From NCBI GenBank assembly GCA_004214175.1, contig SGZH01000015.1, positions 1 to 33,137 of the forward strand: a DNA stretch of 33,137 nucleotides. The letters are read 5' to 3'. The translations under genes were made by a program, and so were the position numbers. This document shows positions 293 through 17,813 of the stretch, one piece after another (position 1 is the first letter of the stretch; each line of letters opens with the position of its first letter). The notes below the pieces were generated by a model that saw only the letters and a program-made list of their open reading frames with translations, ran no database searches and was not told where the DNA came from. Source of the stretch: Flavobacteriales bacterium. Lineage in GTDB: Bacteria > Bacteroidota > Bacteroidia > Flavobacteriales > Flavobacteriaceae.

Positions 293-297
293 CAAAG

Positions 298-579: not shown

Positions 580-592
580 ATAAAACAAAAAG

Positions 593-2479: not shown

Positions 2480-2740
2480 CTAATCACACGGAAATTCATT
2501 TGGAGCAATAGTATGATTGGAGTAAGAAGTTTGACCATCACCAACATATGTTAATTGCAAAGCATTTCCTCCACTACTTACAGTACAAGTTATGCTTCCA
2601 GTTGATGTGGGATTTCCATTAGTGTAGATCCCTTCAAGATACAAAACCATACTATCCTCAAGTTCACTTTGAATTGTATAAGTTGCATATCCTATTATTA
2701 TTTCATTACCATCTTTATCATATTCTGTAATTGGTTGTTT
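2480..2740 (-). pseudogene. 3' fragment of a truncated gene (unknown family)
   Basis: On the minus strand an 86-codon frame with protein-like composition ends at the TAG at 2480-2482. Its last residues are APNEFPCD. It has no start: the frame meets a TAA at 2741-2743, next to a run of A/T that abuts the end of the phzF-like gene. The text (GYATYTIQSELEDSM, VLYLEGIYTNGNPTSTG, SGGNALQLTYVGDGQ) reads like the C-terminus of a secreted beta-rich protein, but I cannot name the family. Its 5' part appears to be lost where the G+C-rich gene pair begins. The other bases of 2369-2750 hold no further gene that I can support. Confidence 0.55.
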
Positions 2741-2750
2741 TTAAAAAAAA

Positions 2751-3539
2751 TTATTCCGTCCACAAAGTTCCTATTGCATAGGTTCGGGCCTGACCTAACA
2801 ACAATACCTGATCGCCTAAAAGACTGCATTTTAAAACCCCACCGCGTTGTGAACGTTGCTTTGCATCCAGTTCCTTTTTTTGGAGCCGTTCTGCCCAAAA
2901 AGGTACCAACGAACAGTGAGCCGATCCGGTAACAGGATCTTCTAAAATAGTGGCTTGTGGGGTAAAAAATCGTGATACAAAATCGCAATGGTCCCCTTTT
3001 GCTGTGACCACCAACCCACCCGGATCCAGATTGATTTGATCGAGCTGAGCTCGGTTAATTTGAAGGTCCAAAATTTCCTGTTCGTTTTGATAAACCAGCA
3101 CATAATCCCGAGCTTTATAAACTTCCTGGGGAGCAATACTCAGTGCCTTTTTAATTGGATTGGGAAGTGGAGCAGGAACAGGCATTCTTGCAGGAAGTTC
3201 CATTTGGTAAGCATCTTTTGTAGCAGTTACACGAAGCAGCCCACTCTTAGTTTTAAAAAGAAAGTGAGGTCGAGAATCTTTTAAAAGAGTTTTTAAACAA
3301 TGTGCAGTCGCAAGGGTGGCATGGCCACAAAGATCCATCTCGATGTCTGGGGTAAACCAACGCAGGTGAAAACTAGCGTCTTCTTCTACAAAAAAAGCGG
3401 TTTCTGGTACTGCATTTTCTTTAGCAATTTTTAACAAGAGTTTATCGGGCAACCAACACTCTAAGGGGACTACACAGGCGGGATTTCCTTTAAAAAGGGT
3501 ATCAGTAAAAGCATCGATTTGATAAAAGCGGAGTTCCAT
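2751..3539 (-). CDS. PhzF-family isomerase-like protein
   Basis: This 262-aa protein matches the PhzF fold along its whole length. It opens with the family signature QIDAFTDTLFKGNPACVV (8-25). PETAFFV (45-51) carries Glu46, the position of the catalytic Glu of PhzF. CGHATLATAH (71-80) is the middle signature, and EDPVTGSAH (200-208) ends the second half. Most PhzF-like proteins outside phenazine operons have unknown substrates. No phenazine genes are present, so a role in phenazine synthesis is not claimed. It starts 3 bases after the upstream hydrolase stop, so the two are cotranscribed. The G+C content is clearly raised (32 of 60 bases at 2881-2940), which suggests recent arrival from a richer genome. 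Confidence 0.88.
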   Translation of the reverse strand: MELRFYQIDAFTDTLFKGNPACVVPLECWLPDKLLLKIAKENAVPETAFFVEEDASFHLRWFTPDIEMDLCGHATLATAHCLKTLLKDSRPHFLFKTKSGLLRVTATKDAYQMELPARMPVPAPLPNPIKKALSIAPQEVYKARDYVLVYQNEQEILDLQINRAQLDQINLDPGGLVVTAKGDHCDFVSRFFTPQATILEDPVTGSAHCSLVPFWAERLQKKELDAKQRSQRGGVLKCSLLGDQVLLLGQARTYAIGTLWTE

Positions 3540-3542
3540 AAA

Positions 3543-4499
3543 TTATTTGCTGGGAAGGTTTAAAAATTGTAGTACTGGTTCGATGCTTCGCTCAGGGTCT
3601 TCCTCCATGGGTACATGTCCTAAATTATCGAAAACCACCAGGGTGCTGTTGGGGAGATCTTTATGAAACTGCTGCGCCACCTCCAAAGGGATTAATCGAT
3701 CCTCAGCGCCCCATAAAATAAGGGTCGCCTGTTGGACCCCCGTTACTTTTTCCCTAGAAAAAGGGGCTGATGGAGTATTGAGTTTATCTACAAAGGCCTG
3801 CCGGTTACCCGATCGAAGGGTGAGTTCAAAATAACGATTGATTACTTCCGGTGATACTTTTTGAGGATCGGCGTAAACATTTTTAACACTGGAGGCCGCA
3901 ACAAAGCGAGGCGTGATAAAAGTAAAGATTTGTTTTACCACCGGTAGTTGCGCTAACTGAAAAGCGATAGGAATACTATTGGAACCTGTTGGATAGCCAG
4001 AGGCATCGATTAAAATTAGCCGGTCGACCCGATCGGGATAAGCACTCGTATAGTTCCAAGCGATTTTTCCCCCTAAAGAGTTTCCGGCCAAAACACAGTA
4101 CTCAACTCCCAGTTCTTGTAAAAAGGCTGCAATAAATTCGACATAATGTTGGGTGCTATAATTACGATCCATAAAAGGCCCCGTAAGCCCATAGGCCGGT
4201 AAATCCATACGGAGTACCCGTCGATAGTTCGACAATGAGTCCGTCCAGTCATCAAAGGTGTGTAAACTAGCTCCGGTTCCATGAATCAATACAATAGGAA
4301 TGGAATCGGTCTTGGGCCCTTCATCGCGATAATGCACCTCCATTCCCTCCAAGTTTAAAAATTGTGAATTGTTATTTGCATAGGTTTCTTTGAGGGTTTC
4401 CAGAGGAATATCTTGGTATCCAAAAAGAATCACAAGCACCCCCATTAATATCCCAAAAACCATAATAATTAGAAGTACCATTTTTTTTAAAAACTTCAT
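3543..4499 (-). CDS. Membrane-anchored alpha/beta hydrolase
   Basis: This 318-aa protein has an N-terminal hydrophobic anchor (about 7-27) followed by an alpha/beta-hydrolase domain. HGTGAS (73-78) is the oxyanion-loop signature. GNSLGG contains the nucleophile Ser141. WGAEDRLIP contains Asp267 and LGHVPMEED contains His295, which completes the triad. The domain most resembles the haloalkane dehalogenase/MhpC-type group, but a Ser nucleophile points to an esterase or C-C hydrolase and not a dehalogenase. The substrate is unknown. It lies 15 bases downstream of the PETase-like gene and 3 bases upstream of the phzF-like gene. Its G+C is high (29 of 60 bases at 3601-3660), unlike most of the window. 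Confidence 0.88.
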   Translation of the reverse strand: MKFLKKMVLLIIMVFGILMGVLVILFGYQDIPLETLKETYANNNSQFLNLEGMEVHYRDEGPKTDSIPIVLIHGTGASLHTFDDWTDSLSNYRRVLRMDLPAYGLTGPFMDRNYSTQHYVEFIAAFLQELGVEYCVLAGNSLGGKIAWNYTSAYPDRVDRLILIDASGYPTGSNSIPIAFQLAQLPVVKQIFTFITPRFVAASSVKNVYADPQKVSPEVINRYFELTLRSGNRQAFVDKLNTPSAPFSREKVTGVQQATLILWGAEDRLIPLEVAQQFHKDLPNSTLVVFDNLGHVPMEEDPERSIEPVLQFLNLPSK

Positions 4500-4514
4500 T
4501 TAAAAACTTGAAAT

Positions 4515-5612
4515 TTAATTTGTTTTAATTAATTTAATAACTTGATTGTCAACATTTAAGTAGTATATACCTAAAGCATAAGTTGATAAATCAATATAGG
4601 GCTGAGAATTACTTAATTGTCCACTTTGTAAGCGCTGGCCATAGGGTGAATAAAGTTCAAAATTTAGTTCTTGAACAATCTCAAAATACACCCGATCTTG
4701 AGTTGGGTTAGGATAATAATTAAGTGCAAGTTCTGGGCTGTTATTAGCCAACAATTCGCAAATAAAATCTTGTTCTACCTTCGAGGCCGCCGGTGGATCT
4801 ACCAATAAATTATCTGTTAATAATGGGCAATAACAATCGTTTTGCTCTACATACAATTTTAACCAAGATAAGGCAATTTTACCAACCGAGTAGTCACCTC
4901 CAGTTGGCGAATTAGCAACCGAATGATCTCCATTTTCAACTTCAAATAATAATTTATTGGTGCTTACAGGAGTCGCTTCGTAGTGTAAATCTGCATGTAA
5001 AAAAGGAGGGGCTACCGTATCGTCTTGTCCACTAAATATAAGCGCAGCACTGTCATGGTTAAAATTGGGGTTTGGAAGCCAAGGACACAAAGCTACCACT
5101 CCAGCGATAGTTGGATCCAACACGGCTGCTCTTTGAGCACCACCACCACCCATAGACCAACCACTAACCGCCATTTGTTCTAGATTAAGATCACCCAGCA
5201 ATGGCGATGCAGGTCGGATATTTTCTTGCTTTATGGTTTCCAAGGCATCAATGAGCGCATAGGCTCTAGCCTCTGGAAAATCTATCGGGGAATTAGTTCC
5301 TATAATAATGGTAACGATACCGTGTGATGCGTAAAAAGGGCCCCATGCCTCTACACTGGAGGGTGCTGAGACAAAACCTGGAACAATAGCAATGCTTGCA
5401 TAGGGAGGAATTCCGTTAGTAGGATAATAGATTGTGGCACCATTATAATCAGGCCCATTTCGAATGCCATCCTCCTCGTTGAGAGCTGCTACTGAATAAG
5501 GTCCCGGAATGCTGAGGCTTTCTAAAGTCACCTCCTCGCATTGTCCATAAACCGAATGGAACATCAGTGACATTAAAAAAATAAATAAATTGACTAGGTA
5601 TTTTTTTTTCAT
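4515..5612 (-). CDS. PETase-like secreted polyester hydrolase with T9SS sorting domain
   Basis: This 365-aa protein has a signal peptide (cut near residue 23), a dienelactone-hydrolase/cutinase-like domain (about 50-265) and a C-terminal T9SS type A sorting domain (about 297-365, opening NYYPNPTQDRVYF). The catalytic domain follows Ideonella PETase closely. PGF (78-80) places Phe80 where PETase has Tyr87. GWSMGGGG (151-158) holds Ser153 and Met154. PW at 177-178 places Trp178 at the Trp185 position. DDTVAP gives Asp198 and DHSVAN gives His230. Ser231 follows the His, as in PETase. Both cysteines of the PETase-specific disulfide near the active site are absent. Established relatives in Bacteroidota are PET27 and PET30, which also carry this sorting domain and hydrolyse PET. 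Activity on polyester is inference; a natural ester polymer such as cutin or PHA, or a lipid, is equally possible. Confidence 0.88.
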   Translation of the reverse strand: MKKKYLVNLFIFLMSLMFHSVYGQCEEVTLESLSIPGPYSVAALNEEDGIRNGPDYNGATIYYPTNGIPPYASIAIVPGFVSAPSSVEAWGPFYASHGIVTIIIGTNSPIDFPEARAYALIDALETIKQENIRPASPLLGDLNLEQMAVSGWSMGGGGAQRAAVLDPTIAGVVALCPWLPNPNFNHDSAALIFSGQDDTVAPPFLHADLHYEATPVSTNKLLFEVENGDHSVANSPTGGDYSVGKIALSWLKLYVEQNDCYCPLLTDNLLVDPPAASKVEQDFICELLANNSPELALNYYPNPTQDRVYFEIVQELNFELYSPYGQRLQSGQLSNSQPYIDLSTYALGIYYLNVDNQVIKLIKTN

Positions 5613-5715
5613 TAAATAGCGGTATTATCAGGTTTTATTAACAATTAATACAAGATACTATTATTTTTAAATTTATCGTTTTATAAAAATAAATTTTCTC
5701 TCACCACAACTCTTT

Positions 5716-6687
5716 TTAAAGCGGAAACCTTTCGTGTATACGTCCTATCTTAAAACCAAGTGCCAAGACATTTTTACTGGCTTCACTCTCCCTATTTAAT
5801 AAAGGATTGGTATGATTAAAATGAGTAAATATCACCCTAGCACGCTGCTCTATAGAAATGTCTTTTAAAGCTTCCATAGTCTCTAATACAGACGGATGAG
5901 GAATTTGTGTCATATCTCGATTCCCCAATTCTTTAGCACTATAAAAAGTAGCATCTAAAAAGGCGTAATCTACTTTTTTTAGTTCTGTTTTAAGGTCCAA
6001 CTCCCATTGATTCCATTTATCAATATCTGGAATAAATAAGGCTTTCTTATTGGGCCCTTCAATTAAGTAACCTACAGTCTCTGAATATTCGTCGCGATGT
6101 GGAACTATAAAAGGAGTGACTTGTAGTGATGGTGATAAAGAAATTGCTTGGTTGGCAACTAAAGATTGGATCTGTATATTACGATTAGCTACCAACTGGC
6201 TCCAAGGACCATTATTGCTTAAAAAGGAACTCATTTTAGGCATGGCAAAAACCGATATTTCACTAGCATTAACAGCTTCTTTACCCAGATACATCAATCC
6301 AGTATAGTGCCCAATGTGTGCATGTGTTAAAAAAATACCATCCACGATACTAGAGGGTGCAATCTTAGAAGCTTTTTTAAGAGCATGTAGCTGTGAACTG
6401 ATATCGGGAGTGGCATCAAAAATATATTTTTTTTGAGTATTAAAATCTAACAAACCCAAAGAGCTTACTTTCCTAGATGAATTAGCTTGCTCAAACAAAC
6501 CTTGACAACATTTTTTGTTGCAGTTTAATTGTGGAGCCCCTGCATCTTGAAGAGTTCCTAGTAAAATTAAAGAAACTCCTACCCCCTTAGTTGTTGTAGA
6601 TATCTCATTTGGATGGGATTCCTTATTTATCTTTTTTTCTTGACAAGAAAAAAAAACGAGTACCATAACTAAATAAAGAAATCGCAT
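5716..6687 (-). CDS. PqqB-like metallo-beta-lactamase-fold lipoprotein
   Basis: This 323-aa protein has a lipoprotein signal (VFFSC, Cys15). The mature part begins with ILLGTLQDAGAPQLNCNKKC, the PqqB-like opening with a Cys cluster (56, 60, 61). THAHIGHYTGL (121-131) is the metal-binding HxHxxH of MBL-fold hydrolases in its PqqB form. Later DATFYSAKEL and FTHFNHTNPLL supply the further Asp and His ligands. PqqB proper acts in PQQ synthesis in the cytoplasm, but here there is no pqqA, C, D or E, and the protein is predicted to be lipid-anchored outside the inner membrane. It is therefore a paralogue with another hydrolase or oxygenase role, substrate unknown. It is transcribed away from the HAD remnant. 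Confidence 0.85.
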   Translation of the reverse strand: MRFLYLVMVLVFFSCQEKKINKESHPNEISTTTKGVGVSLILLGTLQDAGAPQLNCNKKCCQGLFEQANSSRKVSSLGLLDFNTQKKYIFDATPDISSQLHALKKASKIAPSSIVDGIFLTHAHIGHYTGLMYLGKEAVNASEISVFAMPKMSSFLSNNGPWSQLVANRNIQIQSLVANQAISLSPSLQVTPFIVPHRDEYSETVGYLIEGPNKKALFIPDIDKWNQWELDLKTELKKVDYAFLDATFYSAKELGNRDMTQIPHPSVLETMEALKDISIEQRARVIFTHFNHTNPLLNRESEASKNVLALGFKIGRIHERFPL

Positions 6688-6767
6688 TGGTTTTATATTG
6701 GAGCGTTTAAAAGGTTAATTTTTATAGTAACTGTTTATTAATATAAAGATAATGAAACATAATTTAA

Positions 6768-6986
6768 TTCATTATCAAGGTTGCAAAGGTAAGTGGTTAC
6801 GATCAAAAATACTGCGTTGTTATTGAGGATTCAACTAATGGAATAGCTGCTGCAAATGCTGCAGGTATTTACTGTATTGGTTTTAAAAGTCCACATTCTA
6901 AAAATCAAGACTATACAAAAGCTTCCAAGATTATTACTAATTTTTCTGAAATCAGCTATCACAAATTGCAGGCATTAAAAAATTAG
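6768..6986 (+). pseudogene. 3' remnant of a HAD-family phosphatase/phosphomutase
   Basis: The plus frame 6768-6986 has no start codon and begins just after a TAA at 6765. From VAKVSGYDQKYCVVIEDS onward it reads as the C-terminal third of a HAD subfamily IA (beta-phosphoglucomutase-like) protein. IEDSTNGIAAANAAG is HAD motif IV with its conserved acidic residue, and CIGFKSPHS follows as in the family. Motifs I-III and the nucleophile Asp are missing, so it cannot be active. The intact ancestor probably stood upstream of the SDR gene at 7013, 26 bases away. The rest of 6688-7012 holds only leader sequence for the divergent MBL gene. Confidence 0.8.
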
Positions 6987-7012
6987 TAATTTGCTTATCT
7001 TTAAACCTACGA

Positions 7013-7993
7013 ATGGGTATGGATAAAAGTCAAACAATTAGTATTACTGGTGGGACAGGTCACTTAGGTCACTGCCTACTAGTTAAGTTACTAGAGCAAG
7101 GGCACCGCTTAAAAGCACTTTACAATCGTCAATTACCTGTATTAAAACACTCTAATTTAACCTGGATCAAAGGGAACATTACTAAAACCAATTCATTTGA
7201 AGAGTTTCTAAAAGACTCTGATGTGCTGATCCATAGCGCAGGCTTAATTTCTATTGGAAATCAAAACTCCAAATTAGTTTTTCAAGTAAATGTTGTAGGT
7301 ACTGAAAACCTTATAAAAGCTTGTATAAGTTATCAGGTAAAAATGGTGTATGTTAGCTCTTGCACGGCAGTACAAGAAACGTTAAAAAATGAATTATTTA
7401 AAGAAGACCGACCCTACAAATCAAAAAATGATTTTACCTACGGTTATACCAAGGCATTAGCAGAGCAAAAAGTATTAGCTGCTGTTAAAGACGGAAAGCT
7501 AGCCGCTTGTATTGTTCGTCCCTCATCAATTATAGGGCCTCCGGATTACAGACCCTCTCCTTTTGGAAAAACGATTCTGGACTACGCCAATAATAAAATG
7601 CCGATTATCACCAATGGAGGCTATAATCTCGTTGATGTTAGAGATGTTTCACAAACAATTATCAATAGCTTACAAAAAAAATTAACGGGCGAAATATACC
7701 TACTTAGTGGTACTTATTTATCTATAGAAGAAATTGCAAAAATTGCAAATCCTTCTAAATCCTTTTTCAAAATTTCAATTGATCTACTATTGGTTTTATT
7801 ACCTATCATTAAGCTCTATGATTACTTAGTTGGAATGCCTTGGCCACTCACTAAAGAAAGCCTTATAACGCTAAAATTAGCACCGCTCCATATGGATCAT
7901 GGTAAGGCGACTAAAGAATTAAATCACCAAAGTAGACCCCCCTCAGAAAGTATTCTTGATTTGTTATCTTGGTATAAAAAACAACAACAATGA
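7013..7993 (+). CDS. Extended SDR, 3-beta-HSD/dihydroflavonol-reductase-like
   Basis: This 326-aa NAD(P)-dependent short-chain dehydrogenase has TGGTGHLG (12-19) as the Rossmann loop, VYVSSCTAV with the catalytic Ser (115 or 116), and Y143-x3-K147 as the catalytic pair. RPSSIIGPPD and YNLVDVRDVS are typical of the 3-beta-hydroxysteroid dehydrogenase / dihydroflavonol reductase / HpnA group of extended SDRs. Family members oxidise or reduce hydroxyl groups on sterols, flavonoids or sugar nucleotides. The neighbouring 5-alpha-reductase favours a sterol-like ring substrate, which is inference. The stop overlaps the next start (ATGA, 7990-7993), so translation is coupled. A second ATG at 7019 is a possible alternative start. 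This is probably the first gene of the 7013-11786 operon. Confidence 0.88.
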   Translation: MGMDKSQTISITGGTGHLGHCLLVKLLEQGHRLKALYNRQLPVLKHSNLTWIKGNITKTNSFEEFLKDSDVLIHSAGLISIGNQNSKLVFQVNVVGTENLIKACISYQVKMVYVSSCTAVQETLKNELFKEDRPYKSKNDFTYGYTKALAEQKVLAAVKDGKLAACIVRPSSIIGPPDYRPSPFGKTILDYANNKMPIITNGGYNLVDVRDVSQTIINSLQKKLTGEIYLLSGTYLSIEEIAKIANPSKSFFKISIDLLLVLLPIIKLYDYLVGMPWPLTKESLITLKLAPLHMDHGKATKELNHQSRPPSESILDLLSWYKKQQQ

Positions 7994-8742
7994 TAAGCTT
8001 AGAAACCCTTTACAACATCTGTATAATATGGTCACTAATTGGCATAGGATCTTTTATTTTATTACAATTTGTAAAAGCACCCTACGGTAGACACATTCGA
8101 AAAGGTTGGGGGCCTGAAATCCCAAATTATTTAGGATGGATATTGATGGAACTTCCTTCTTTTTTAATTATTTTTTACTTCTATTATTTTTACACACAAA
8201 GTACTTATGCTAGTATGTTAAGCTTACTGTGGCTATTGCATTATTTTAATAGAACATTTATTTATCCCTTTAGAATCCGTACAAAGAAGAAAAAAATGCC
8301 TATGACCATTGTTCTATCCGCCATTGGTTTTAATTTTATGAATGCCGGTTTAAACGGTTACTTTTTAGCATTTTTTGATACCTATAGCACAGCTAGTTTT
8401 GAATCTTGGAATTTTTATACAGGATTGGTTTTGTTTGGTCTTGGATTGATTGTAAATCAAGTAAGTGACAATCTCCTGATTAATTTAAGAAAACCCGAAG
8501 AAATAGGTTATAAGATACCTCAGGGGTTTTTATTTAATTATATTTCATGTCCTAATTATTTGGGAGAAATTGTTCAATGGATAGGTTTTGCATTAATGGC
8601 TTGGAATTTTCCAGCATTTACTTTTTTAATTTGGACCGCTGCTAATTTACTCCCGAGAGTTTCTGGGCATCACAAGTGGTATCAAGATCATTTTAAAGAC
8701 TACCCAAAAAACCGAAAAGCATTAATTCCAAAAATATGGTAA
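7990..8742 (+). CDS. 3-oxo-5-alpha-steroid 4-dehydrogenase (SRD5A-like)
   Basis: This 250-aa polytopic membrane protein (six to seven hydrophobic segments) matches eukaryotic steroid 5-alpha-reductase over its full length. KAPYGRHI (29-36) is an opening motif. MELPSF holds Glu54, and LHYFNRTFIYP holds Tyr85; these correspond to the steroid-contacting Glu57 and Tyr91 of human SRD5A2. LRKPEEIGYKIPQGFLFNYI (166-185), then NYLGEIVQWIG, form the NADPH region. DYPKNRKALIPKIW is the C-terminal signature, almost as in human SRD5A1. The known reaction is NADPH-dependent reduction of the delta-4 double bond of 3-oxosteroids. Related enzymes reduce polyprenals or enoyl-CoA, but the C-terminal signature favours the SRD5A branch. 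It overlaps the SDR by 4 bases. Confidence 0.9.
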   Translation: MISLETLYNICIIWSLIGIGSFILLQFVKAPYGRHIRKGWGPEIPNYLGWILMELPSFLIIFYFYYFYTQSTYASMLSLLWLLHYFNRTFIYPFRIRTKKKKMPMTIVLSAIGFNFMNAGLNGYFLAFFDTYSTASFESWNFYTGLVLFGLGLIVNQVSDNLLINLRKPEEIGYKIPQGFLFNYISCPNYLGEIVQWIGFALMAWNFPAFTFLIWTAANLLPRVSGHHKWYQDHFKDYPKNRKALIPKIW

Positions 8743-8797
8743 TCCTCTCAAAAAACATTAAATTAGCATTTACTAAGTCATTTTTAATAAGTTATCC

Positions 8798-11056
8798 GTG
8801 TTAAATTTAACCAAGCTATCAAAAAATATTTTAGCCAAAAAATGGCTCATTATTGTTTTGGTGTGTTTGGGAACCTTATTTTTTGGAAATGAATTGAAAA
8901 AACTTCAAATTGATGCAGATATTGTTAGGTCATTACCCGATGATGATGTTGATGCGAGGCTTCTAAAAAAAATTGGAGAAAACTTTGGAAGCAATAACAT
9001 GGGCGTTATTATCCTAGAAACAGATAACATATACCAACCTTCAGTCATAGAACACATTCAACTGATTACTGATACCCTTTCAGGAATTAGCGGTATTTCA
9101 TCTGTATCTAGTTTAACGAATATCATCAATATTAAAGGAAGTGATTACGGTATTGAAATTGGAAAATTAGTAGACGAATACGAGCTTCCTAAAACAGCTT
9201 TAGAATTTGAAAAACTCCGTAACAATATATTAAATAACCCCATGTACAAGGGTTCCATTGTATCGGAGGATGAAACCGCCTCCTTAATTGTATTTAATAT
9301 TGAAAATGAAGCAAATGTAAATCTCATAGCTAAAGAGGTTATTGAAAAAACAACTACACTACAAATTCCAGAAAAACTATATTATATCGGTTCTCCTATG
9401 CTGGTGACTTATATATCTGATTTGATGCGAAAGGATTTAACAACACTTTTACCCATTGCATTTTTAGTAATTGCTATAGTGTTATTATTGAGTTTTAGAT
9501 CTTTAACTGGTGTTATACTACCTCTTTTAATTGCTGTTATTAGTATAGTATGGAGCTTGGGAAGTATGGCTTTTTTAGGGATTAAAATGTCAATGATTTC
9601 AAATAATATTCCCATTATCATATTAGCAATTGGAAGTGCCTATACTATCCACGTTATAAATCGAGTGAATAAAGTTCGTCTAGAAGAACAGCACTCGGAT
9701 ACCATAAAAACAGCATTGGTTTATGTGCTAATTCCTATTATTCTGGCTGCATTAACAACCATCATCGGTTTTATTTCTTTTATTTTTGGATCGTACCTAG
9801 ATATGATTGTAGATTTTGGAATCTTTACCGCACTAGGAACATTATTTGCTTGTCTCCTATCGATCTTTTTTGTTCCAGCTATTTTGAGTGTATTCAATCT
9901 AAAAAATAAAACTTCTAAAGCTCCCAAAGACGATTCATTTATAACGAATTACCTGTTAAATCCCTTACACCAACTTATCGCTAACAAACCTAAAGCGGTG
10001 TTACTATTTTGGATAGTATTGATTGGCTTTAGCGTGTTCCATCTTTTTTCTATTAAACGAAGTGTCGATATCCAAGAATACTTTAAAAGCGATAATCCTA
10101 CTCGGTTTGCAGAACAAATTATGGTAGAAAAATTTGGAGGAACTAAACCTATATTTGTTTATTTTAAAGGGAATATGCAAAGCCCTGCAGTGCTTAAAAA
10201 AATGTTAGAAACTTCTGCCTATATGGAAGAAAGTCCTGAGGTATATACGTCCATGTCGATTGCAAAATTAATTGATGAAATTAATTATAATTTCACCAAT
10301 TCCAGAACGTTTCCCCAAGAGATAGAACAAATTGAGCAATTGTGGTTTTTATTAGATGGTAATGAGGTACTCCCCCGTTTTGTCAATGAGGAGCTTACGG
10401 AAGGAATCATCATTTCAAAATTTAAATCTCCTGATAACAAATCAAAAATCGAGTTTGCAAAGTACATGAACCGCTTTATTGCTGAAAACTCTACCGAAGA
10501 ATGTCAAATACAAATTACAGGTATGCCCTTTGTAGACATTACGATGGACCAAAGTCTTATTAACAGTCAGATTGGTAGTATTGCCATTGCTGTTTTTTTT
10601 GTTATCGTGCTCGTAGGAGCTATCCTACGATCATTAAAAAGCGGGATTTTTGCTGCTATTCCGATCATCGCTACGATTATACTCTTATTTGGGTTTATGG
10701 GATTAACTGGGATATCTTTAAATATAGCAACCGTACTTGTGGCTAGCGTTGCCTTGGGGATTGGTATTGACTATGCCATCCATATTATATCTCATTTTAA
10801 GGCTTCTTTTAAAAAAAATAACGATGTATACGCTGCTGTACAGGAATCAATATTCGTGAGCGGTAAGGCAATTATTATTAATGTAGTTTCGGTATCTGCG
10901 GGATTCTTGGTTTTAGTATTCTCCGACATGGTACCCCTCCAATATTTTGGTTTATTAATTGCCTTAAGTATGGTAAGCTCCTGTCTAGGGGCTTTAACAT
11001 TACTCCCTTCTTTATTAATATTAATGAATAAAAAAAACAGTCAAAATGAAAATTAA
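8798..11056 (+). CDS. RND/MMPL-superfamily lipid exporter
   Basis: This 752-aa protein has the duplicated RND layout. TM1 is at about 14-30, followed by a periplasmic domain and five helices (about 213-370). A second TM near 400-417 is followed by another periplasmic domain and a final helix bundle (about 586-745). The second half carries GIGIDYAIH; the first half has AIGSAYTIHV without the Asp, as is usual in the 'predicted exporter' group (COG1033, MMPL domain PF03176). This superfamily includes HpnN (hopanoids), MmpL3 (mycolates) and sterol-sensing NPC1/Patched. The start is GTG 8798, because no ATG lies in frame nearby. It overlaps the LolA-like gene by 11 bases, so they are expressed together. 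The cargo is probably a hydrophobic lipid, perhaps the product of the two upstream enzymes. Confidence 0.88.
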   Translation: MLNLTKLSKNILAKKWLIIVLVCLGTLFFGNELKKLQIDADIVRSLPDDDVDARLLKKIGENFGSNNMGVIILETDNIYQPSVIEHIQLITDTLSGISGISSVSSLTNIINIKGSDYGIEIGKLVDEYELPKTALEFEKLRNNILNNPMYKGSIVSEDETASLIVFNIENEANVNLIAKEVIEKTTTLQIPEKLYYIGSPMLVTYISDLMRKDLTTLLPIAFLVIAIVLLLSFRSLTGVILPLLIAVISIVWSLGSMAFLGIKMSMISNNIPIIILAIGSAYTIHVINRVNKVRLEEQHSDTIKTALVYVLIPIILAALTTIIGFISFIFGSYLDMIVDFGIFTALGTLFACLLSIFFVPAILSVFNLKNKTSKAPKDDSFITNYLLNPLHQLIANKPKAVLLFWIVLIGFSVFHLFSIKRSVDIQEYFKSDNPTRFAEQIMVEKFGGTKPIFVYFKGNMQSPAVLKKMLETSAYMEESPEVYTSMSIAKLIDEINYNFTNSRTFPQEIEQIEQLWFLLDGNEVLPRFVNEELTEGIIISKFKSPDNKSKIEFAKYMNRFIAENSTEECQIQITGMPFVDITMDQSLINSQIGSIAIAVFFVIVLVGAILRSLKSGIFAAIPIIATIILLFGFMGLTGISLNIATVLVASVALGIGIDYAIHIISHFKASFKKNNDVYAAVQESIFVSGKAIIINVVSVSAGFLVLVFSDMVPLQYFGLLIALSMVSSCLGALTLLPSLLILMNKKNSQNEN

Positions 11057-11786
11057 ACAATTCCTTGTTTTCCTTTTTTTTAGTACTTTGATTTATGGAC
11101 CTATACAGGCTCAAAATGCGGAGACTTTATTACAAAATATGGACTTTTTAATTGCCGCCCCAAAAGATAAAGAAGCGAATGTTTTAATGATTATTAAAGA
11201 TAAAAATGGAACTATTAAAGAACGAGAGGCTAACTTAAAACAAAAAGGAAAGTATAAAAAATTATACCGATATACCAAACCAGAAAAACAAGCTGGAATT
11301 GCTACGTTATCCCTGCCAAACAATGTGATTTGGTTGTATATGCCTGCCTTTGGCAAAGCGATTCGAATCTCTTTGTTAAGTAAGAGTCAGGCTTTTAATG
11401 GAACCGATTTTTCTCAAGAAGATATGAGTGGTATTCCTTACAGCGAACGTTATAACCCAGTTTTAATTAGTGAAAAAAATGATCCCAATTATCAATTAGC
11501 ATTAAGTCCAAAATCAAAAAAATCAAAGTATTCAAAAATTATTTTAACCATGGATAAAACCAACTATTATCCGATAAAAATGGAGTACTACGAGAAAGGA
11601 GATAAATTAATAAAGATTGCCAATTATAACTATCAAAAGCAAGGTGCCTACTGGTTTGCTAAGGAAGTAGAGATGACTACGGTTTTGAAAAAACATGCTA
11701 CCACTATTGTGTTATCGGATGTAAAGTTTGATCAAGGACTAAGTGATGCTATTTTTACGATTGAAAATCTAAAACTAGAAAACTAA
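11046..11786 (+). CDS. LolA-like outer-membrane lipoprotein-sorting protein
   Basis: This 246-aa secreted protein has a signal peptide cut near Ala22 (PIQA-QNAE). The mature part is a LolA-like half-barrel (PF17131 type): YRYTKPEKQAGIATLSLP, then VIWLYMPAFGKAIRI, then KMEYYEKGDKLIKI and FAKEVEMTTVLKKHAT. Proteins of this family are regularly encoded next to COG1033 RND exporters and are thought to accept lipid in the periplasm. It is therefore the likely carrier partner of the exporter at 8798-11056, not the general lipoprotein carrier LolA. Last gene of the plus-strand operon; it converges on the START gene with 6 bases between the stops. Confidence 0.88.
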   Translation: MKIKQFLVFLFFSTLIYGPIQAQNAETLLQNMDFLIAAPKDKEANVLMIIKDKNGTIKEREANLKQKGKYKKLYRYTKPEKQAGIATLSLPNNVIWLYMPAFGKAIRISLLSKSQAFNGTDFSQEDMSGIPYSERYNPVLISEKNDPNYQLALSPKSKKSKYSKIILTMDKTNYYPIKMEYYEKGDKLIKIANYNYQKQGAYWFAKEVEMTTVLKKHATTIVLSDVKFDQGLSDAIFTIENLKLEN

Positions 11787-11792
11787 AAATTC

Positions 11793-12431
11793 CTAGTCGA
11801 TAAAAGTATAAAAGCTAATATTAGCTTTATTTTGATCGATACTTTTTTTAATTTTTGTTAAGGTGTTAAATGGAGTGTCAACAACAAATAAATTTGCTAA
11901 CCACGAAGGAACAGCACCTCCCGGATCTACTTGCATTAAAAAAGTAACCTCTAATTCATTTTTAGCAGCTACTTTTACCTTCCAATAGCCATATCCACTT
12001 ACACGAATGTATTTATCGTTTTCCTCTAAGTAGTTGTCTAATACCTCGATAGTCACGTTCAATTCTTTTTTGTCTTTGTCCCAAGTAAACCTGTTACGAT
12101 AGACCCCATCTCTATTTTTATAGGGAAATGGTGCTTTTGCTACAGAGTAATAAATCTGTAAGGTGTCTCCTTTTCGTTCTAATAATGATGCAGATTTAAC
12201 ATTATGTCCCCAATCTTCATAGCTATTTAGATCAAAAATGGTATCAATAAAATCATGGATGGATGCCTCAATGGTGGTTGTACCCTTAAATGTTTTAAAG
12301 GCATAGGTGCCTTCTTCTTCCAAATATACTTGTATTCCATCTTTATCTTTTATCAATTCCCAATGTTCTTGGGCATTTAGAGTAAGAACCGTAAATAAAA
12401 AAAGTAACGTAATGTAGCTAATTGTTTTCAT
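11793..12431 (-). CDS. Secreted START-domain lipid-binding protein
   Basis: This 212-aa protein has a signal peptide cut near Ala20. The rest is one START domain: HWELIKDKDGIQVYLEE at the start, a FKTFKGTTTIEAS strand, DLNSYEDWGHNVKSASLL, PFPYKNRDGVYRNRF, and MQVDPGGAVPSWLANLF (166-182) as the C-terminal signature. START domains hold one hydrophobic ligand, such as cholesterol, phospholipid or ceramide, in a closed cavity. A secreted bacterial form would be a periplasmic carrier; the ligand here is unknown. It follows the sulfotransferase by 8 bases and converges on the RND-LolA operon, which suggests that the two sets handle the same lipid. Confidence 0.88.
   Translation of the reverse strand: MKTISYITLLFLFTVLTLNAQEHWELIKDKDGIQVYLEEEGTYAFKTFKGTTTIEASIHDFIDTIFDLNSYEDWGHNVKSASLLERKGDTLQIYYSVAKAPFPYKNRDGVYRNRFTWDKDKKELNVTIEVLDNYLEENDKYIRVSGYGYWKVKVAAKNELEVTFLMQVDPGGAVPSWLANLFVVDTPFNTLTKIKKSIDQNKANISFYTFID
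11803..11849 (+). terminator. Probable terminator between the converging lipid genes
   Basis: A perfect inner hairpin AAAGCTAA/TTAGCTTT (11811-11828) sits inside an outer pairing AAAGTAT/ATACTTT (11803-11809 with 11839-11845), and a T run follows to 11849. It lies within the last codons of the START gene on the other strand. On the minus strand the inner hairpin is followed by a weaker T-rich tract, so it may act in both directions. Confidence 0.5.
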
Positions 12432-12439
12432 AAATAATT

Positions 12440-13573
12440 TTATTCAACGACAACATTTTCAGGTATTTTATAGGTATACAGATCCATGAAAAAACGCCAT
12501 TCTTTAATGATAGTGTCTAATTGAGCCTTGCTAATAGAATGATTGTTTTTGTGATAACTCTTCATTTTATCGATATAGTGTTCAAATTTTGAAAATGCCT
12601 GTTCAAAATTATCAAGACCCAAATGAGTATAGATATGTTGCAAAACAGCGAGTGGTGATTTTTCGAGTTCTTTATAAGAAATCTCTACCAGGTTTTTGGT
12701 TGGTATGTTTTTTTTATCTTGCAAATAATCACTCATAATTTTTTTATAAATTGAGATGATATTAATATCGATTTCATCTTCAGATATACCTTGTAATTGG
12801 AGTGGTGGCAACATCTTTCTATAAAAATTTTGAGTGGACAAAAATACCTCTACAGGATTTCTATGGATAAAAATAAATTTAGCATTGGGAAACATTGCTA
12901 ACAACGTATTTATTCGACCAGTATTTGGAGGATTTTTAGAAAGGTATAGATCTCCGCTCGTATTTTTAATTGCTTTTTTTATAAACAAGTGGTAGTCTGC
13001 TTTCCATCGATCTATTTTTTTTATTTCAACGGTATCAAAACGAATATAGCGATCATAAAATTGAATCATTTTTTTGGGAAACATCCAAAAAAAGTAAAAA
13101 CTAAGTGGAATTTTAGCACCTAATGCAAATTCTTCTTCCTGAGGTAAAGATGAACCTAAGCTTACATTATCACCTTTTCTAGTCCCAGGAATTAATAAAG
13201 AAGAAAATCCTTTAAATAAAAATCTACCTAACTTATTAAATAAGGTATCTGGAAATACACTTTGATACGTAGAGGCGTATGCCATTTGAGGGTCTTGACA
13301 AAGTAAATTGTGCAAATGTGTAGTACCGCTTCTCCAATGCCCAATAATAAAAACTGGTGCTTTTGTTACTTTTTTATTTTTAAAATGAGGATTTATAAAT
13401 AAACGCTCGTAAGTTCTAAAAGGAAAATTAATTAAGTTGATCAAGACTAATATAAAAACTCTTAAAAAATATTTTAGAGATAGGTTATTAGTTGTAAATA
13501 AACTAAAGATCACCGAGACGGAATAGCCAATAGCTGGCGGGAATAGCATTCCTCTTTTACTTTTTTTTGTCAT
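12440..13573 (-). CDS. PAPS-dependent sulfotransferase (Sulfotransfer_3)
   Basis: This 377-aa protein has FIIGHWRSGTTHLHNLL (75-91), the 5'-phosphosulfate loop for PAPS, and IFIHRNPVEVFLS (234-246), the 3'-phosphate site. LSKNPPNTGRINTLL precedes the latter as in Sulfotransfer_3 (PF13469). A hydrophobic stretch near 34-50 suggests membrane association. These enzymes move sulfate onto hydroxyl groups of lipids, glycans or small molecules. From memory, a gut Bacteroides sulfotransferase (BT0416) sulfonates cholesterol and other steroids; whether this is an orthologue needs a comparison. It is 29 bases after hisS and 8 bases before the START gene, so it is probably transcribed with both. Confidence 0.88.
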   Translation of the reverse strand: MTKKSKRGMLFPPAIGYSVSVIFSLFTTNNLSLKYFLRVFILVLINLINFPFRTYERLFINPHFKNKKVTKAPVFIIGHWRSGTTHLHNLLCQDPQMAYASTYQSVFPDTLFNKLGRFLFKGFSSLLIPGTRKGDNVSLGSSLPQEEEFALGAKIPLSFYFFWMFPKKMIQFYDRYIRFDTVEIKKIDRWKADYHLFIKKAIKNTSGDLYLSKNPPNTGRINTLLAMFPNAKFIFIHRNPVEVFLSTQNFYRKMLPPLQLQGISEDEIDINIISIYKKIMSDYLQDKKNIPTKNLVEISYKELEKSPLAVLQHIYTHLGLDNFEQAFSKFEHYIDKMKSYHKNNHSISKAQLDTIIKEWRFFMDLYTYKIPENVVVE

Positions 13574-13602
13574 AAATAATACGTTGAATTAAAATTAGGG
13601 CA

Positions 13603-14973
13603 CTATTTAAAAACTTCAAGTAATTGTTGAATACTATATTCTGATTGTTCACCAGATTTCATGTTTTTTAAGGTAAAAGACTGACTATTAATTTCTTTTT
13701 CACCCGCAAGAATTACAAAAGGAATTGTTCTTTTATCTGCATAACTCATTTGTTTTCCCATTTTTGCTGAATCTGGATAAAGTTCGCATGCGATGTTATT
13801 TTTCCTTAAAGTAGTCATGGCTTGCATCGCATACAGAGATTCCTTGTCGCCAAAATTGATAAATAAAACCTTTGTATTGGCCAATACCGCAGGTGGGAAT
13901 AGATTAAGTTCTTCCAAAACTAAATAAATTCGATCTAATCCAAAGGAAATTCCTACACCGCTCATGTCTTTTAATCCAAAAATACCTGTTAAATCGTCAT
14001 AGCGGCCACCACCACCAATACTTCCTAGTTGGACCTCTTTTGGGGGGCTTACTTCAACAATTGCGCCGGTATAATAATTTAGACCTCTTGCAAGTGTAAC
14101 ATCAAACTCGAGATTTGCTGTTTTTAAATTAAGGGTTTGAAAAGCTTCGTAGATAAATTCTAATTCTTCAATACCCTTTAGACCTGTAACTGAAGTTGAT
14201 AAAATTTCTTTTAAAGCTACTAGCTTTTCAACTGGAGTTCCTTTTAAACCAAGTAAAGGCTTTAATTTTTCTAGAGCTTCTTCAGTGATTCCTTTTTGCA
14301 ACATTTCTGTCTTTACCCCTTCCTCTCCAATTTTGTCGAGTTTATCTAAAGCTATTGTAAAATCAATTAATTTATCTTCAGCACCAATGACTTCGGCAAT
14401 GCCGCTTAAAACTTTACGGTTGTTCAATTTTATAATAACTCCCTCTAAATTTAATTGATTAAAAATATCATCATACAATTGGATCAATTCTACCTCCTGC
14501 CACAACGATTTAGAACCAACTACATCAGCATCACATTGATAAAACTCTCTAAATCTTCCTTTTTGAGGACGATCTGCTCTCCATACAGGTTGTATTTGAG
14601 AACGCTTAAAAGGAAACGTTAAGTCGTTTTGATATTGCACAACATATCGAGCAAAAGGTACTGTAAGATCATATTTCAGTGCTTTCTCTGAAATACTAGA
14701 AGTTACTTTTAAGCTATTTTTTTCATTTAAAAATGCTGCATCGGTTTTTTTTAAAAAATCACCACTATTTAAAATTTTAAAAATCAACCGGTCTCCTTCC
14801 TCACCATATTTACCCATTAAAGTTTCGCTTTTTTCAAAAGAAGGCGTTTCAATGGGCTGGTAACCATAATTTTTAAAACTCGTTCGCATAATGTCCATGA
14901 TATAGTTTCGTTTTGATACTTCGAGCGAAGAAAAATCTCTCGTTCCTTTTGGTATGGATGGTTTTTGTGCCAA
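13603..14973 (-). CDS. hisS: Histidine--tRNA ligase
   Basis: This 456-aa class II aminoacyl-tRNA synthetase charges tRNA-His with histidine in the cytoplasm. The N-terminus has KGTRDFSS. YDLTVPFARYV and VWRADRPQKGRFREFYQCD form motif 2 and the ATP site. LARGLNYYTGAIVEV is the HisA-type histidine-binding signature. GGGGRYDDL and GVGISFGLDRIY are the second His signature and motif 3. The C-terminal anticodon-binding domain runs from about residue 360. The length and motif order are normal, so it is intact. It is probably the first gene of the hisS-sulfotransferase-START unit. Confidence 0.97.
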   Translation of the reverse strand: MAQKPSIPKGTRDFSSLEVSKRNYIMDIMRTSFKNYGYQPIETPSFEKSETLMGKYGEEGDRLIFKILNSGDFLKKTDAAFLNEKNSLKVTSSISEKALKYDLTVPFARYVVQYQNDLTFPFKRSQIQPVWRADRPQKGRFREFYQCDADVVGSKSLWQEVELIQLYDDIFNQLNLEGVIIKLNNRKVLSGIAEVIGAEDKLIDFTIALDKLDKIGEEGVKTEMLQKGITEEALEKLKPLLGLKGTPVEKLVALKEILSTSVTGLKGIEELEFIYEAFQTLNLKTANLEFDVTLARGLNYYTGAIVEVSPPKEVQLGSIGGGGRYDDLTGIFGLKDMSGVGISFGLDRIYLVLEELNLFPPAVLANTKVLFINFGDKESLYAMQAMTTLRKNNIACELYPDSAKMGKQMSYADKRTIPFVILAGEKEINSQSFTLKNMKSGEQSEYSIQQLLEVFK

Positions 14974-15105
14974 GTCTATTTAATTTAAAATATGATACTA
15001 AGTTATGCAAATATCTTAATTTCAAATTTAATTTATTAGATAATTTAAAATAATGGTAACTTTATACATCAAATCTAGTCTAACGGTTAAACCAATCTAT
15101 ATTTT

Positions 15106-16344
15106 ATGTTTTCCCTTTTTCGAGTTAATGTACTAATAGCTATCAATTCAATAAAAACTCAACTATTGAGAACCATTTTAACCGTGGTAATAATTGGTAT
15201 TGGAATATGGGCTTTAGTGGGTATTTTAAGCTCTGTAGAGGCTATGGAAAATTCTATTTCTGGTAATTTTGCTACCATGGGCTCTAATACATTTAATATA
15301 CAACGTTATGATTTTAACTTGCAACGCCAAGGCGGTGAACGTGAAAAAGTAAATCCAATTATCAGTTATCAAAATATTCGAGAATTTATTGATATTTATG
15401 AGTTTCCTACCTCACAAACATCTATTTCATTCAGAGGAACTAGCGGAGCCGAAGTAAAGTTTGAAAACAACAAAACAGATCCCGAAGTTCAAGTATTTGG
15501 TATCAATGAATACTATCTTGAGAATACGGGCTCAGAAATTGAATCTGGTAGAAACTTAAATATTTTTGATATCCAAAATAACAACAAAGTATGTATTATC
15601 GGATCTGATTTTTTAAAAAAATTATTTGTTAACGACAATCCTATTGGAAAAAAAATTAGTATTCGAGGGGTAAAATTTAAAGTGATTGGTGTCTTGGAAT
15701 CCAAAGGAGCTACCTTTGGAAACAACCAAGATTTAAGAGTTTTAATACCTATACAAGTAGCCCGAGGAATTTTTACGGCACCTAATATCAATTATACCAT
15801 CAGTATCATGGTCAAAAACACGGAGATGCTAAATGCTGCTCAAGACGAGGCAGTTATAACCTTTAGAAATATTCGAGGTTTAAACCCTATTGAAAAAAAT
15901 GACTTTGGGATCGAACGAAGTGACGACCTAATCAATCGAATTACCAGTATCACTGGATACCTTGAAATAGCAGCTTGGATTATTAGTATTATTACCATCT
16001 TGGGTTCTTCGATTGCTCTGATGAATATCATGTTGGTTTCTGTTACAGAACGTACTCGTGAAATTGGAGTCCGAAAAGCCCTAGGTGCAAAAAACTCAAC
16101 GATTTCGACTCAATTTTTTATTGAGACGATTGTTATTGGACAAATCGGTAGTGTTTTAGGAATCTTACTTGGAATTGTTACCGGAATGATTTTTTCTTCT
16201 TTTTTTGAATCCGAATTTTCTTTACCTTGGATTCCAATGCTATGGGCAACAATTATTACTTTTATCGTAGCTATTATTGCAGGTTTTTATCCCGCAATGA
16301 AAGCCTCAAAATTAGATCCTATTGAAAGCTTAAGATATGAATAG
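15106..16344 (+). CDS. MacB/FtsX-type ABC transporter permease
   Basis: This 412-aa protein has the MacB-permease layout: one N-terminal membrane helix (about 19-40), a large periplasmic MacB_PCD domain (about 45-280) and three C-terminal helices of the FtsX domain. ERTREIGVRKALGAK, just after the second helix, is the family signature. Such permeases pair with a MacB/LolD-type ATPase and drive efflux or lipoprotein transfer by mechanotransmission from the periplasm. No ATPase or membrane-fusion gene lies beside it here, so its partners are encoded elsewhere. It is divergent from hisS, with 132 bases between the starts. Confidence 0.88.
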   Translation: MFSLFRVNVLIAINSIKTQLLRTILTVVIIGIGIWALVGILSSVEAMENSISGNFATMGSNTFNIQRYDFNLQRQGGEREKVNPIISYQNIREFIDIYEFPTSQTSISFRGTSGAEVKFENNKTDPEVQVFGINEYYLENTGSEIESGRNLNIFDIQNNNKVCIIGSDFLKKLFVNDNPIGKKISIRGVKFKVIGVLESKGATFGNNQDLRVLIPIQVARGIFTAPNINYTISIMVKNTEMLNAAQDEAVITFRNIRGLNPIEKNDFGIERSDDLINRITSITGYLEIAAWIISIITILGSSIALMNIMLVSVTERTREIGVRKALGAKNSTISTQFFIETIVIGQIGSVLGILLGIVTGMIFSSFFESEFSLPWIPMLWATIITFIVAIIAGFYPAMKASKLDPIESLRYE

Positions 16345-16415
16345 TAAGTCTAAATTTTATTTTTTGACTCCATGCAATAATTAATAATCAAATTAGTTAT
16401 TATTAAAAAATATTT

Positions 16416-17297
16416 ATGAAAAAACTGTTTTATTATTGTTTCGTTTTTATAGTAATTGCTTGTAGTAAATACAATGATAAAAATGGTTCTGATTGTTATT
16501 CAAATTCGAATACAGAACTTATATTCCATGACGGTATTGATAGAGAGTATTTGTTGTATATACCCGATTCATATGATGGTACTACTGCTGTGCCAATCGT
16601 TTTTAACTTTCATGGTTATGGAGGTAATGTAGAAGAATTTATGGAGTATGCAGACCTACGCTCGGTGGCAGAAACCAATACGTTTATTGTAGTCTATCCC
16701 CAAGGTAGTTGTCTAGAAGGTTCTTCCCATTGGAATCCCTGCCCAAACGGACCGGATAACAAAAGTGAAGCTGATGATTTTGGATTTGTTGAAGCTATGA
16801 TCAATCAGATATCCTCAGAATACAATATAGATTTGGATAGAGTTTATGCAGGGGGATACTCTAACGGAGGTATGATGGCCTATGGGCTTGCGAATTATAA
16901 AAGTGATTTAATTGCTGCAGTGGCATCTGTTTCCGGAACAATGTTAAACTGTACAGGATCTACCAATCATCCTATGCCAGTAGTACATCTTCATGGAACC
17001 TCTGATGATGTTGTTTCCTATAATGGGAGTACTGACTGGAATTCTGTACAAAATACGCTGGATTACTGGATTAATTTTAATAGCACCACAACCACTCCAA
17101 CAGTAAACTCAGAGAATAGTGGCGGAATAACTATCGAACATTATATTTATGACCAAGGTGAAAATTCTGTTTCGGTCGAACATTATAAATTTATTGGAGG
17201 AGAACACGTATGGTTTAACGAAACCTATCAGGGTCAAAATACTGCTGAATTGATTTGGAATTTTATGTCTAGATATGATCTCAACGGATTAAGGTAG
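16416..17297 (+). CDS. PHB-depolymerase-like esterase lipoprotein
   Basis: This 293-aa protein has a lipoprotein signal (FIVIAC, Cys16) and one alpha/beta-hydrolase domain of the LpqC / PHB-depolymerase esterase group (PF10503). PIVFNFHGYGGN (60-71) is the oxyanion region. GGYSNGGMMAYGLA carries the nucleophile Ser149. HGTSDDVVSYNG gives Asp197 or Asp198, and GGEHVWF gives His264. SHWNPCPNGPDNKSEADDF matches the family's lid region. Related enzymes cleave polyhydroxybutyrate oligomers or feruloyl/acetyl esters on plant polysaccharides. It probably sits on the cell surface or in the periplasm. It lies 71 bases after the permease gene on the same strand, so it could be read from that promoter or its own. 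Confidence 0.87.
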   Translation: MKKLFYYCFVFIVIACSKYNDKNGSDCYSNSNTELIFHDGIDREYLLYIPDSYDGTTAVPIVFNFHGYGGNVEEFMEYADLRSVAETNTFIVVYPQGSCLEGSSHWNPCPNGPDNKSEADDFGFVEAMINQISSEYNIDLDRVYAGGYSNGGMMAYGLANYKSDLIAAVASVSGTMLNCTGSTNHPMPVVHLHGTSDDVVSYNGSTDWNSVQNTLDYWINFNSTTTTPTVNSENSGGITIEHYIYDQGENSVSVEHYKFIGGEHVWFNETYQGQNTAELIWNFMSRYDLNGLR

Positions 17298-17339
17298 CAT
17301 AATAAGGTTTTATTAACCTCTGAGAGAATCCTGTTAGTT

Positions 17340-17813
17340 TCAGTTTACAATTTTATCAAAAAACACAAATAAGTCGCCTTTGGTAATAATAGCACCTTGT
17401 TCTATTAATGAAAAAATATCTCCTTTTTTATCTTCGGTAAAATCTTTATTAGCTGTAAAAAACTCGACTTCGTCATAAGCAAAATTTTTCTGAAGCCATT
17501 TAAAACCTTCAGGGGTTCTGAAATCAATTTTCTCATTGGTGGTTTTTACCACTATTAATTTCATATGAGCTACTTCAACTTTAAATAGAAATAATTGCAT
17601 GGCAGAAATATTTTCGAGGTAGGAAGCATTGTTCAATACCCCTTCCCAAATCAAATCACTAAAAACATCTAATTCTTCTTCGGCAACTTCGGGTTTTACT
17701 CTTTTAATTTCTTCCCACTCTTTTCCTGTGATTGATTGTGTTGCCAAAAAATTAATAAATTCTTCGTGTAATTCTTCAAATTGCTCTTTGGTAAGTCTTC
17801 TGTATTTTGCCAT
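17340..17813 (-). CDS. DUF6495 family protein
   Basis: This 157-aa cytoplasmic protein starts AKYRRLTKEQFEELHEEFI after Met and matches a conserved Flavobacteriia family that I know as DUF6495. It also contains TGKEWEEIKRVKPEVAEEE, DVFSDLIWEGVL and IEQGAIITKGDLFVFFDKIV. The frame is open for 30 more codons upstream, but that part overlaps the terminator and the end of the receptor gene, so the conserved MAKYRR start at 17813 is chosen. Function unknown. The start codon directly abuts the T run of the receptor gene's terminator, so it depends on read-through or on a very short leader. It converges on the esterase at 16416-17297. Confidence 0.8.
   Translation of the reverse strand: MAKYRRLTKEQFEELHEEFINFLATQSITGKEWEEIKRVKPEVAEEELDVFSDLIWEGVLNNASYLENISAMQLFLFKVEVAHMKLIVVKTTNEKIDFRTPEGFKWLQKNFAYDEVEFFTANKDFTEDKKGDIFSLIEQGAIITKGDLFVFFDKIVN

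Follow-up and report, generated by a model that had tools for sequence, protein, structure and literature searches.

What do six adjoining genes on a Flavobacteriales contig do, and does their proximity reflect a shared task? The window analysed here is the whole of contig SGZH01000015.1 (33,137 nucleotides; source genome 1.33 Mb, 69.6% complete). Within it, positions 7013-13573 encode a short-chain dehydrogenase/reductase (SDR), an SRD5A-type membrane reductase, an MMPL transporter, a LolA-like protein, a START-domain protein and a 3'-phosphoadenosine-5'-phosphosulfate (PAPS) sulfotransferase. Near relatives of the source genome include the Flavobacteriaceae/Flavobacteriales bins FRAM18_bin221, PACB-20200414-m8 and MED-G119, and judging by these bin names the carriers of the six genes are apparently marine. 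Comparison with relatives confirmed that the genes are one conserved unit. Judged from sequence, this would be a functional unit that saturates, sulfates and moves a ready-made 3-hydroxy sterol, most likely an imported algal one, through the envelope; we favour this reading tentatively and give it close to an even chance. The genes are:

7013..7993, plus strand: extended SDR of the 3-beta-hydroxysteroid dehydrogenase (3-beta-HSD)/epimerase type, 326 aa (PF01370, 98.3 bits; PF01073, the 3-beta-HSD family, 95.4 bits against a cut-off of 22)
7990..8742, plus strand: SRD5A-type NADPH membrane reductase, 250 aa (PF02544, 173.2 bits against a cut-off of 22.6)
8798..11056, plus strand: MMPL/HAE3-type RND transporter, 752 aa, GTG start (PF03176, 143.2 bits)
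11046..11786, plus strand: LolA-like protein, 246 aa (PF17131, 151.1 bits)
11793..12431, minus strand: START-domain protein, 212 aa (PF01852, 33.1 bits)
12440..13573, minus strand: PAPS-type sulfotransferase, 377 aa (PF13469, 120.5 bits)

Open reading frame (ORF) calls and Pfam agree on the six families that a sequence-only reading of this DNA had named, and all six Pfam assignments exceed their respective curated cut-offs. The overlaps that it had noted, of 4 bases between the SDR and reductase genes and 11 bases between the MMPL and LolA-like genes, are borne out by the ORF coordinates. At the convergent junction, the stop codons of the LolA-like and START genes are 6 bases apart.

In the genus, 9 of 19 genomes, among them that of the window, have the six genes adjacent and in identical order and orientation (L026, L025 and L027 equal the G935, G930 and G920 contigs in length, and each such pair was counted once). 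The reductase is found in these 9/19 genomes and the sulfotransferase in the same nine plus G924, the only one of the ten reductase-less genomes to have it, there with a broken frame. Presence of the sulfotransferase in 9/9 genomes with the reductase versus 1/10 without it gives P = 1.1e-4, with kinship among the genomes uncorrected. The SDR and sulfotransferase frames of G930 are broken, a likely result of sequencing error because the frame of HisS is broken there too. The same block occurs in a second genus (G109; 43-67% protein identity), where the contig end cuts the sulfotransferase gene. In the one-contig genome of a third genus (G025), MMPL and LolA-like genes converge on START and sulfotransferase genes at 3.061-3.066 Mb, and the SDR and reductase genes lie at 32.6-34.4 kb, about 0.5 Mb from the other four; the convergent junction has therefore been kept even with the chemistry pair elsewhere. 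Purifying selection acts on each of the six genes (dN/dS 0.07-0.19 in two pairwise comparisons with relatives).

A survey of 199 genomes of the family covered three of the six proteins, the reductase, START protein and sulfotransferase. Close homologs of all three were found in an identical set of four genomes (G000, G188, G109 and G025), at cut-offs chosen after the gaps had been seen (reductase at least 64% identity, START E-value 1e-70, sulfotransferase E-value 1e-100). In these four the reductase shows at least 64% identity and the E-values are at most 2.4e-75 (START) and 1.4e-105 (sulfotransferase); a four-and-four overlap has P = 1.6e-8 if the genes are independent, again uncorrected for kinship. 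The next matches below the cut-offs were a 57% identical reductase in G102, a START protein in G194 (9.9e-36) and a sulfotransferase in G154 (3.5e-54). Overall, weaker START matches occur in 15 more of the family genomes and a weaker sulfotransferase match in one, while reductases at 43-57% identity occur in six and still weaker ones in six others; across the phylum, a reductase with an E-value of 1e-30 or better was found in 8/395 genomes. The joint conservation in relatives for which the sequence-only reading had suggested a search is thus present in the genus and in G109, and its proposed link between the two convergent sets is borne out by the co-occurrence in 4/199 and 9/19 genomes and by the G025 junction.

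The site can also be seen without the unit. In G927 and G919 (81% and 83% complete), neither reductase nor sulfotransferase was found and the site is empty, with an AHSA1-like gene directly adjoining a HAD-like gene (names read from sequence). The full block lies right after the AHSA1-like gene in G932 and G934, and between HAD-like and patatin-like genes in G188 and G933. The HAD-like and patatin-like genes (the latter also named from sequence) were rejected as unit members because both flank the site in unit-less genomes. At the AHSA1-HAD site of G924 (L175, C18, 2492-7260), the MMPL and LolA-like frames are open and those of START and sulfotransferase are broken; no SDR-reductase pair lies beside them, and no reductase match was found genome-wide (87% complete). 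This looks like a relic of the block that decayed after losing its chemistry genes, sequencing error being another possible cause. In the window itself, a HAD-hydrolase-like 3' remnant (named from sequence) lies at about 6780-6986 on the plus strand, its 5' part absent; in L025, L026, L027 and L029 such a gene is open (about 220 aa) just 5' of the SDR.

What, then, might the unit do? We infer the substrate, the order of steps, the direction of transport and the fate of the lipid. The SDR would oxidise the 3-beta-hydroxyl of a sterol and isomerise Delta5 to Delta4, producing a 4-en-3-one. The reductase would place a hydride from NADPH onto C5 to give the 5-alpha-3-ketone, which the SDR would reduce back to the 3-beta-ol, a 5-alpha-stanol. 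The sulfotransferase would then transfer sulfate from PAPS onto the 3-hydroxyl, and the LolA-like and START proteins may keep the lipid shielded on its way through the periplasm.

The sterol reading is suggested first by the reductase. Its best matches in the PDB are 7c83 (201.6 bits), which we take to be the bacterial PbSRD5A, and human SRD5A2 (7bw1, 152.8 bits); an enoyl-CoA reductase follows at 67.0 bits, and SRD5A3 is not among the matches. By score it is much nearer to SRD5A proteins than to an enoyl-CoA reductase, and a TECR-type reductase is disfavoured; a tree grouping with polyprenal or enoyl-CoA reductases is what the sequence-only reading had named as contrary to its own proposal. 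In a 5-alpha-reductase (5AR) tree of 20 homologs, 9 of 12 weak matches (three were without a suitable frame) and 3 PDB pieces, the unit reductases form a single clade (support 100/99); the placement of a 178-residue TECR piece, which falls beside SRD5A2, is unsure because its branch is very long. SRD5A proteins have a QEY motif and eight residues that contact NADPH (N, D, R, N, E, R, H and Y), as given in the available part of PMC7815742. Like SRD5A (7bw1, 7c83), the unit reductase, a PF02544 protein, keeps the catalytic Glu and Tyr (E54 and Y85) and all eight NADPH residues (N156, D160, R167, N189, E193, R223, H227 and Y231).

The second reason is that a 3-beta-HSD-like SDR gene overlaps the reductase gene, in parallel to gut bacterial modules in which PF01073-like 3-beta-HSDH/isomerases adjoin or are fused to 5-beta-reductases (PMC12238238, in the part available). 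These modules and SpiR (PMC13079761, likewise in part) are similar to the unit in joining a dehydrogenase, PF01073-like or SDR, to an enone reductase, a combination that would take a 3-beta-OH-5-ene to a saturated 3-beta-ol. The unit differs in that the partner is a membrane reductase of the SRD5A (5-alpha) type, in its added transport and sulfation genes, and in its hosts. The YxxxK motif of the SDR (Y143/K147) is invariant in 6 aligned homologs, and PF01370 scores higher on this protein than PF01073.

Third, the sulfotransferase groups with those of gene clusters that resemble BT_0411-BT_0416 of Bacteroides thetaiotaomicron. In the available part of PMC9417993, BT_0412 is thought to import sulfate and BT_0413-BT_0415 to make PAPS, and cholesterol sulfation by BT_0416 is proven in E. 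coli, in vitro and by deletion. A survey of the class found sulfotransferase homologs with an E-value of 1e-30 or better in 39/395 genomes, and neighbourhoods were fetched for 20 of 40 places. In five Bacteroidia genomes of two families, presumably of gut origin (G871, G533, G853, G537 and G904), genes for APS kinase, CysD and CysN directly precede the sulfotransferase gene. A permease gene precedes these in 4/5 (the G853 contig does not reach that far) and is itself preceded by an inositol-phosphatase-like gene in G871, G533 and G537 and by a different gene in G904 (Pfam was used for G533; the remaining names were read from sequence). The unit shares with BT_0411-BT_0416 a PAPS sulfotransferase, which in the window is 36-41% identical to those of the five clusters. 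Unlike the unit, the clusters carry the APS kinase, CysD and CysN genes, mostly with the permease, beside the sulfotransferase, and tblastn over 13.5-18 kb found none of the unit's MMPL, LolA-like, START, SDR and reductase genes in them.

The sulfotransferase tree had 29 rows: the 20 of 40 surveyed places, the G154 sequence and 8 from the unit, with G931 and G933 omitted along with the broken copies of G930 and G924. Unit sulfotransferases share a clade (96/91) with those of the five PAPS-cluster genomes, G760 and G828; a separate clade (100/98) holds ten others, for six of which neighbours were listed. As in the window, the sulfotransferase gene of G828 is followed by a START gene. APS kinase is needed for PAPS. 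No gene for PAPS synthesis was found among the neighbours of the unit run through Pfam, the next genes being HisS and MacB (named from sequence); an APS kinase gene is present, away from the unit, in 7/7 carrier genomes searched. The APS kinase genes, together with the cyclase search described below, also favour the sterol reading.

Other sulfotransferase homologs have different surroundings. Those of L132, L133 and L135 lie by AMP-ligases, FAD oxidoreductases and phytoene-desaturase-like genes (Pfam for L133 only), perhaps as pigment clusters with a sulfation step. A cluster in L082 (G154, 3-17632) combines a distantly related sulfotransferase, 30% identical, with a large polyketide-synthase-like protein, a condensation-like protein, an alpha/beta hydrolase, an AMP-ligase-like protein, an SDR, a membrane protein of 696 aa and a fatty acid hydroxylase (Pfam for the hydroxylase, other names read from sequence).

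Two of the PAPS-cluster genomes provide a fourth reason: G533 and G537 also hold a 5AR, of a Met type described below, adjoining a flavoprotein of the Old Yellow Enzyme (OYE) family, followed in G533 by an SDR. The arrangement recalls the Odoribacteraceae cluster of 5AR, 5-beta-reductase (5BR) and 3-beta-HSDH. 5-alpha-reductase activity has been reported for Bacteroides uniformis and several Odoribacteraceae (PMC12589954, in the part available). A separate OYE-family protein is encoded near the SDR-reductase pair of G025 (L031, 14688-15893, minus strand), with 38.8% identity over 389 aa to the OYE protein beside the 5AR of G533.

The remaining proteins are consistent with lipid transport through the envelope. 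The best NCBIfam model for the MMPL protein is HAE3 (267.6 bits against a cut-off of 351.9). The sterol-sensing family PF12349 also passes on it (54.8 bits), which is weak evidence because this domain is homologous to RND proteins. The LolA-like protein falls under the NCBIfam cut-offs for LolA1 (19.2 against 100) and LolA3 (22.2 against 83) and passes that of PF17131. The LolA-like and START proteins begin with signal-like stretches, as judged by eye, and the best match of all to the START profile is the bacterial 3qsz (163.2 bits). In the superfamily of RND transporters, HpnN carries hopanoids and BstA putatively sterols toward the outer membrane (PMC10942540, in the part available). From the same source, the sterol operon of Methylococcus, with BstABC, resembles the unit in placing an inner-membrane RND transporter and envelope proteins beside sterol-modifying enzymes. 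It differs in that the unit has LolA-like and START proteins, an MMPL far under the BstA cut-off and carriers in which no cyclase was found, and in that reduction and sulfation are predicted for it rather than C-4 demethylation.

Several observations weigh against a sterol substrate. Among named eukaryotic proteins, the START profile favours PCTP (62.0 bits), STARD10 (59.3) and CERT (41.5) over STARD3 (38.3), STAR (37.5) and STARD4 (24.0), which we take to be carriers of phospholipid or ceramide and of cholesterol, respectively. Unlike SRD5A, the unit reductase has Met (M53) at the Gln of the QEY motif, which is Gln in both 7c83 and 7bw1; the Met is found in 20/20 aligned Bacteroidota/Rhodothermota homologs, several of them closely related. 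In human SRD5A2, Q56A and Q56L abolish activity (PMC7815742, in the part available). The Gln-to-Met change and the order of the START scores speak against a simple transfer of eukaryotic function. The SDR is under the NCBIfam curated cut-offs for SdmB (138.2 against 600) and HpnA (156.7 against 367.65), as is the MMPL protein for HpnN (101.6 against 751.85) and BstA (39.3 against 1400). A sister relation between the unit sulfotransferases and the BT_0416-like group, represented by the five PAPS-cluster genomes, has a support of only 57/1. When the sulfotransferase profile was compared with the PDB, hydroxysteroid sulfotransferases scored only about 20 bits, and more distant homologs adjoin carotenoid-type genes. 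Finally, 5AR loci elsewhere are without the other five genes (tblastn on the DNA fetched for 13 genomes: G004, G102, G136, G149, G151 (3.4 kb only), G055, G271, G325, G430, G511, G561, G533 and G537), and they were rejected as a guide to function since none of the remaining block genes lies alongside.

In the main rival reading, the substrate is a hydroxylated isoprenoid other than a sterol, for example a xanthophyll or polyprenol. The SDR and reductase would then work like the DHRSX/SRD5A3 pair of dolichol synthesis, saturating an alpha,beta-unsaturated carbonyl; the sulfotransferase would sulfate a hydroxyl, and the MMPL, LolA-like and START proteins would deliver the lipid to the envelope. 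This agrees with the Met in place of the QEY Gln, with a START profile closer to PCTP than to the cholesterol STARDs, with the failure to find a cyclase, and with homologous Bacteroidia sulfotransferases near phytoene-desaturase-like and other Crt-like genes (Crt names read from sequence), AMP-ligases and FAD oxidoreductases. However, the top scores of the reductase are with SRD5A proteins whose action on steroids is known, Pfam showed no carotenoid-type family in the 21 of 27 window ORFs to which it was applied, and a tree that unites the unit sulfotransferases with the separate clade of ten is weakly rejected (p-AU 0.031, for groups named after the tree had been seen). We regard such a non-sterol substrate as somewhat unlikely.

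A less probable alternative keeps the same chemistry and changes its purpose: algal or animal steroids would be reduced, sulfated and pumped out as waste. An RND-type transporter beside conjugating chemistry and the patchy distribution within the genus (9/19) would suit such detoxification, but the signal-like starts of the START and LolA-like proteins suggest membrane delivery over efflux, and we consider it quite unlikely.

It is very unlikely that the unit modifies and transports a sterol or hopanoid made by the host. The SDR has weak similarity to HpnA and SdmB and the MMPL protein to HpnN and BstA, and oxidosqualene cyclase is known in some Flavobacteriia (Eudoraea; PMC4919349, in the part available). 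None of these four curated cut-offs is reached, however, and SQHop_cyclase_C (PF13243) had no match in 7/7 carriers searched, which include three genomes with a completeness of 99% or more (G188, 99%; G109, 99%; G025, 100%). No squalene or oxidosqualene cyclase match was found in the window's own genome (69.6% complete). The only match among 13 genomes was a weak one in G102 (31.2 bits), which lacks the unit and gave no START or sulfotransferase match in the family survey; among 14 controls, PF13243 matched two, Bacillus subtilis and Methanosarcina acetivorans. The hopanoid that the sequence-only reading had listed among possible substrates is therefore unlikely, as are in-house sterols; this leaves sterols that are imported and lipids that are not cyclised.

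That an SDR-reductase-transporter operon and an unrelated START-sulfotransferase pair are neighbours by chance would accord with their convergence, with the distant SDR-reductase pair of G025 and with the sulfotransferase-START pair of G828 (no other unit genes within 18 kb), but is highly improbable given the co-occurrence in 4/199 and 9/19 genomes, the G025 junction and the broken START and sulfotransferase frames of reductase-less G924.

If the substrate is an imported sterol, what would the unit mean? Each family is already known, and we class the combination as bacterial steroid modification coupled with lipid transport in the envelope. Searches of open-licence full texts turned up neither this six-gene combination nor any such genetic system for marine bacteria. 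Two gut-bacterial steroid activities, reduction and sulfation, would here be joined to an envelope lipid route, and the bacterial makers of marine 5-alpha-stanols, so far inferred from geochemistry, would become testable through six genes. More specifically, marine bacteria might have here a genetic system, the first of its kind, that turns algal sterols into 5-alpha-stanols (and stanol sulfates) and traffics them: a unit gained or lost whole, which would equip the envelope of a host without sterol synthesis with a saturated, sulfated eukaryotic sterol and be one source of marine 5-alpha-stanols. We consider this extended proposal doubtful, in part because stanols were absent from the water-column samples of a Baltic study. 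That study also takes the stanol ratio to indicate anaerobic transformation, and according to an Arctic paper healthy phototrophs themselves hold 5-20% stanols; all three points oppose a role in open water.

Three other genes of the window may be mentioned. A DUF285-repeat protein is encoded at 593-2368 on the plus strand (591 aa, 757.3 bits across 7 stretches). At 4515-5612 on the minus strand is the gene for a PETase-like hydrolase (PF12740, 167.3 bits) whose C-terminus carries a sorting tail for Por secretion, and at 28862-29503, also on the minus strand, that for a CAT acetyltransferase family protein (PF00302, 95.4 bits).

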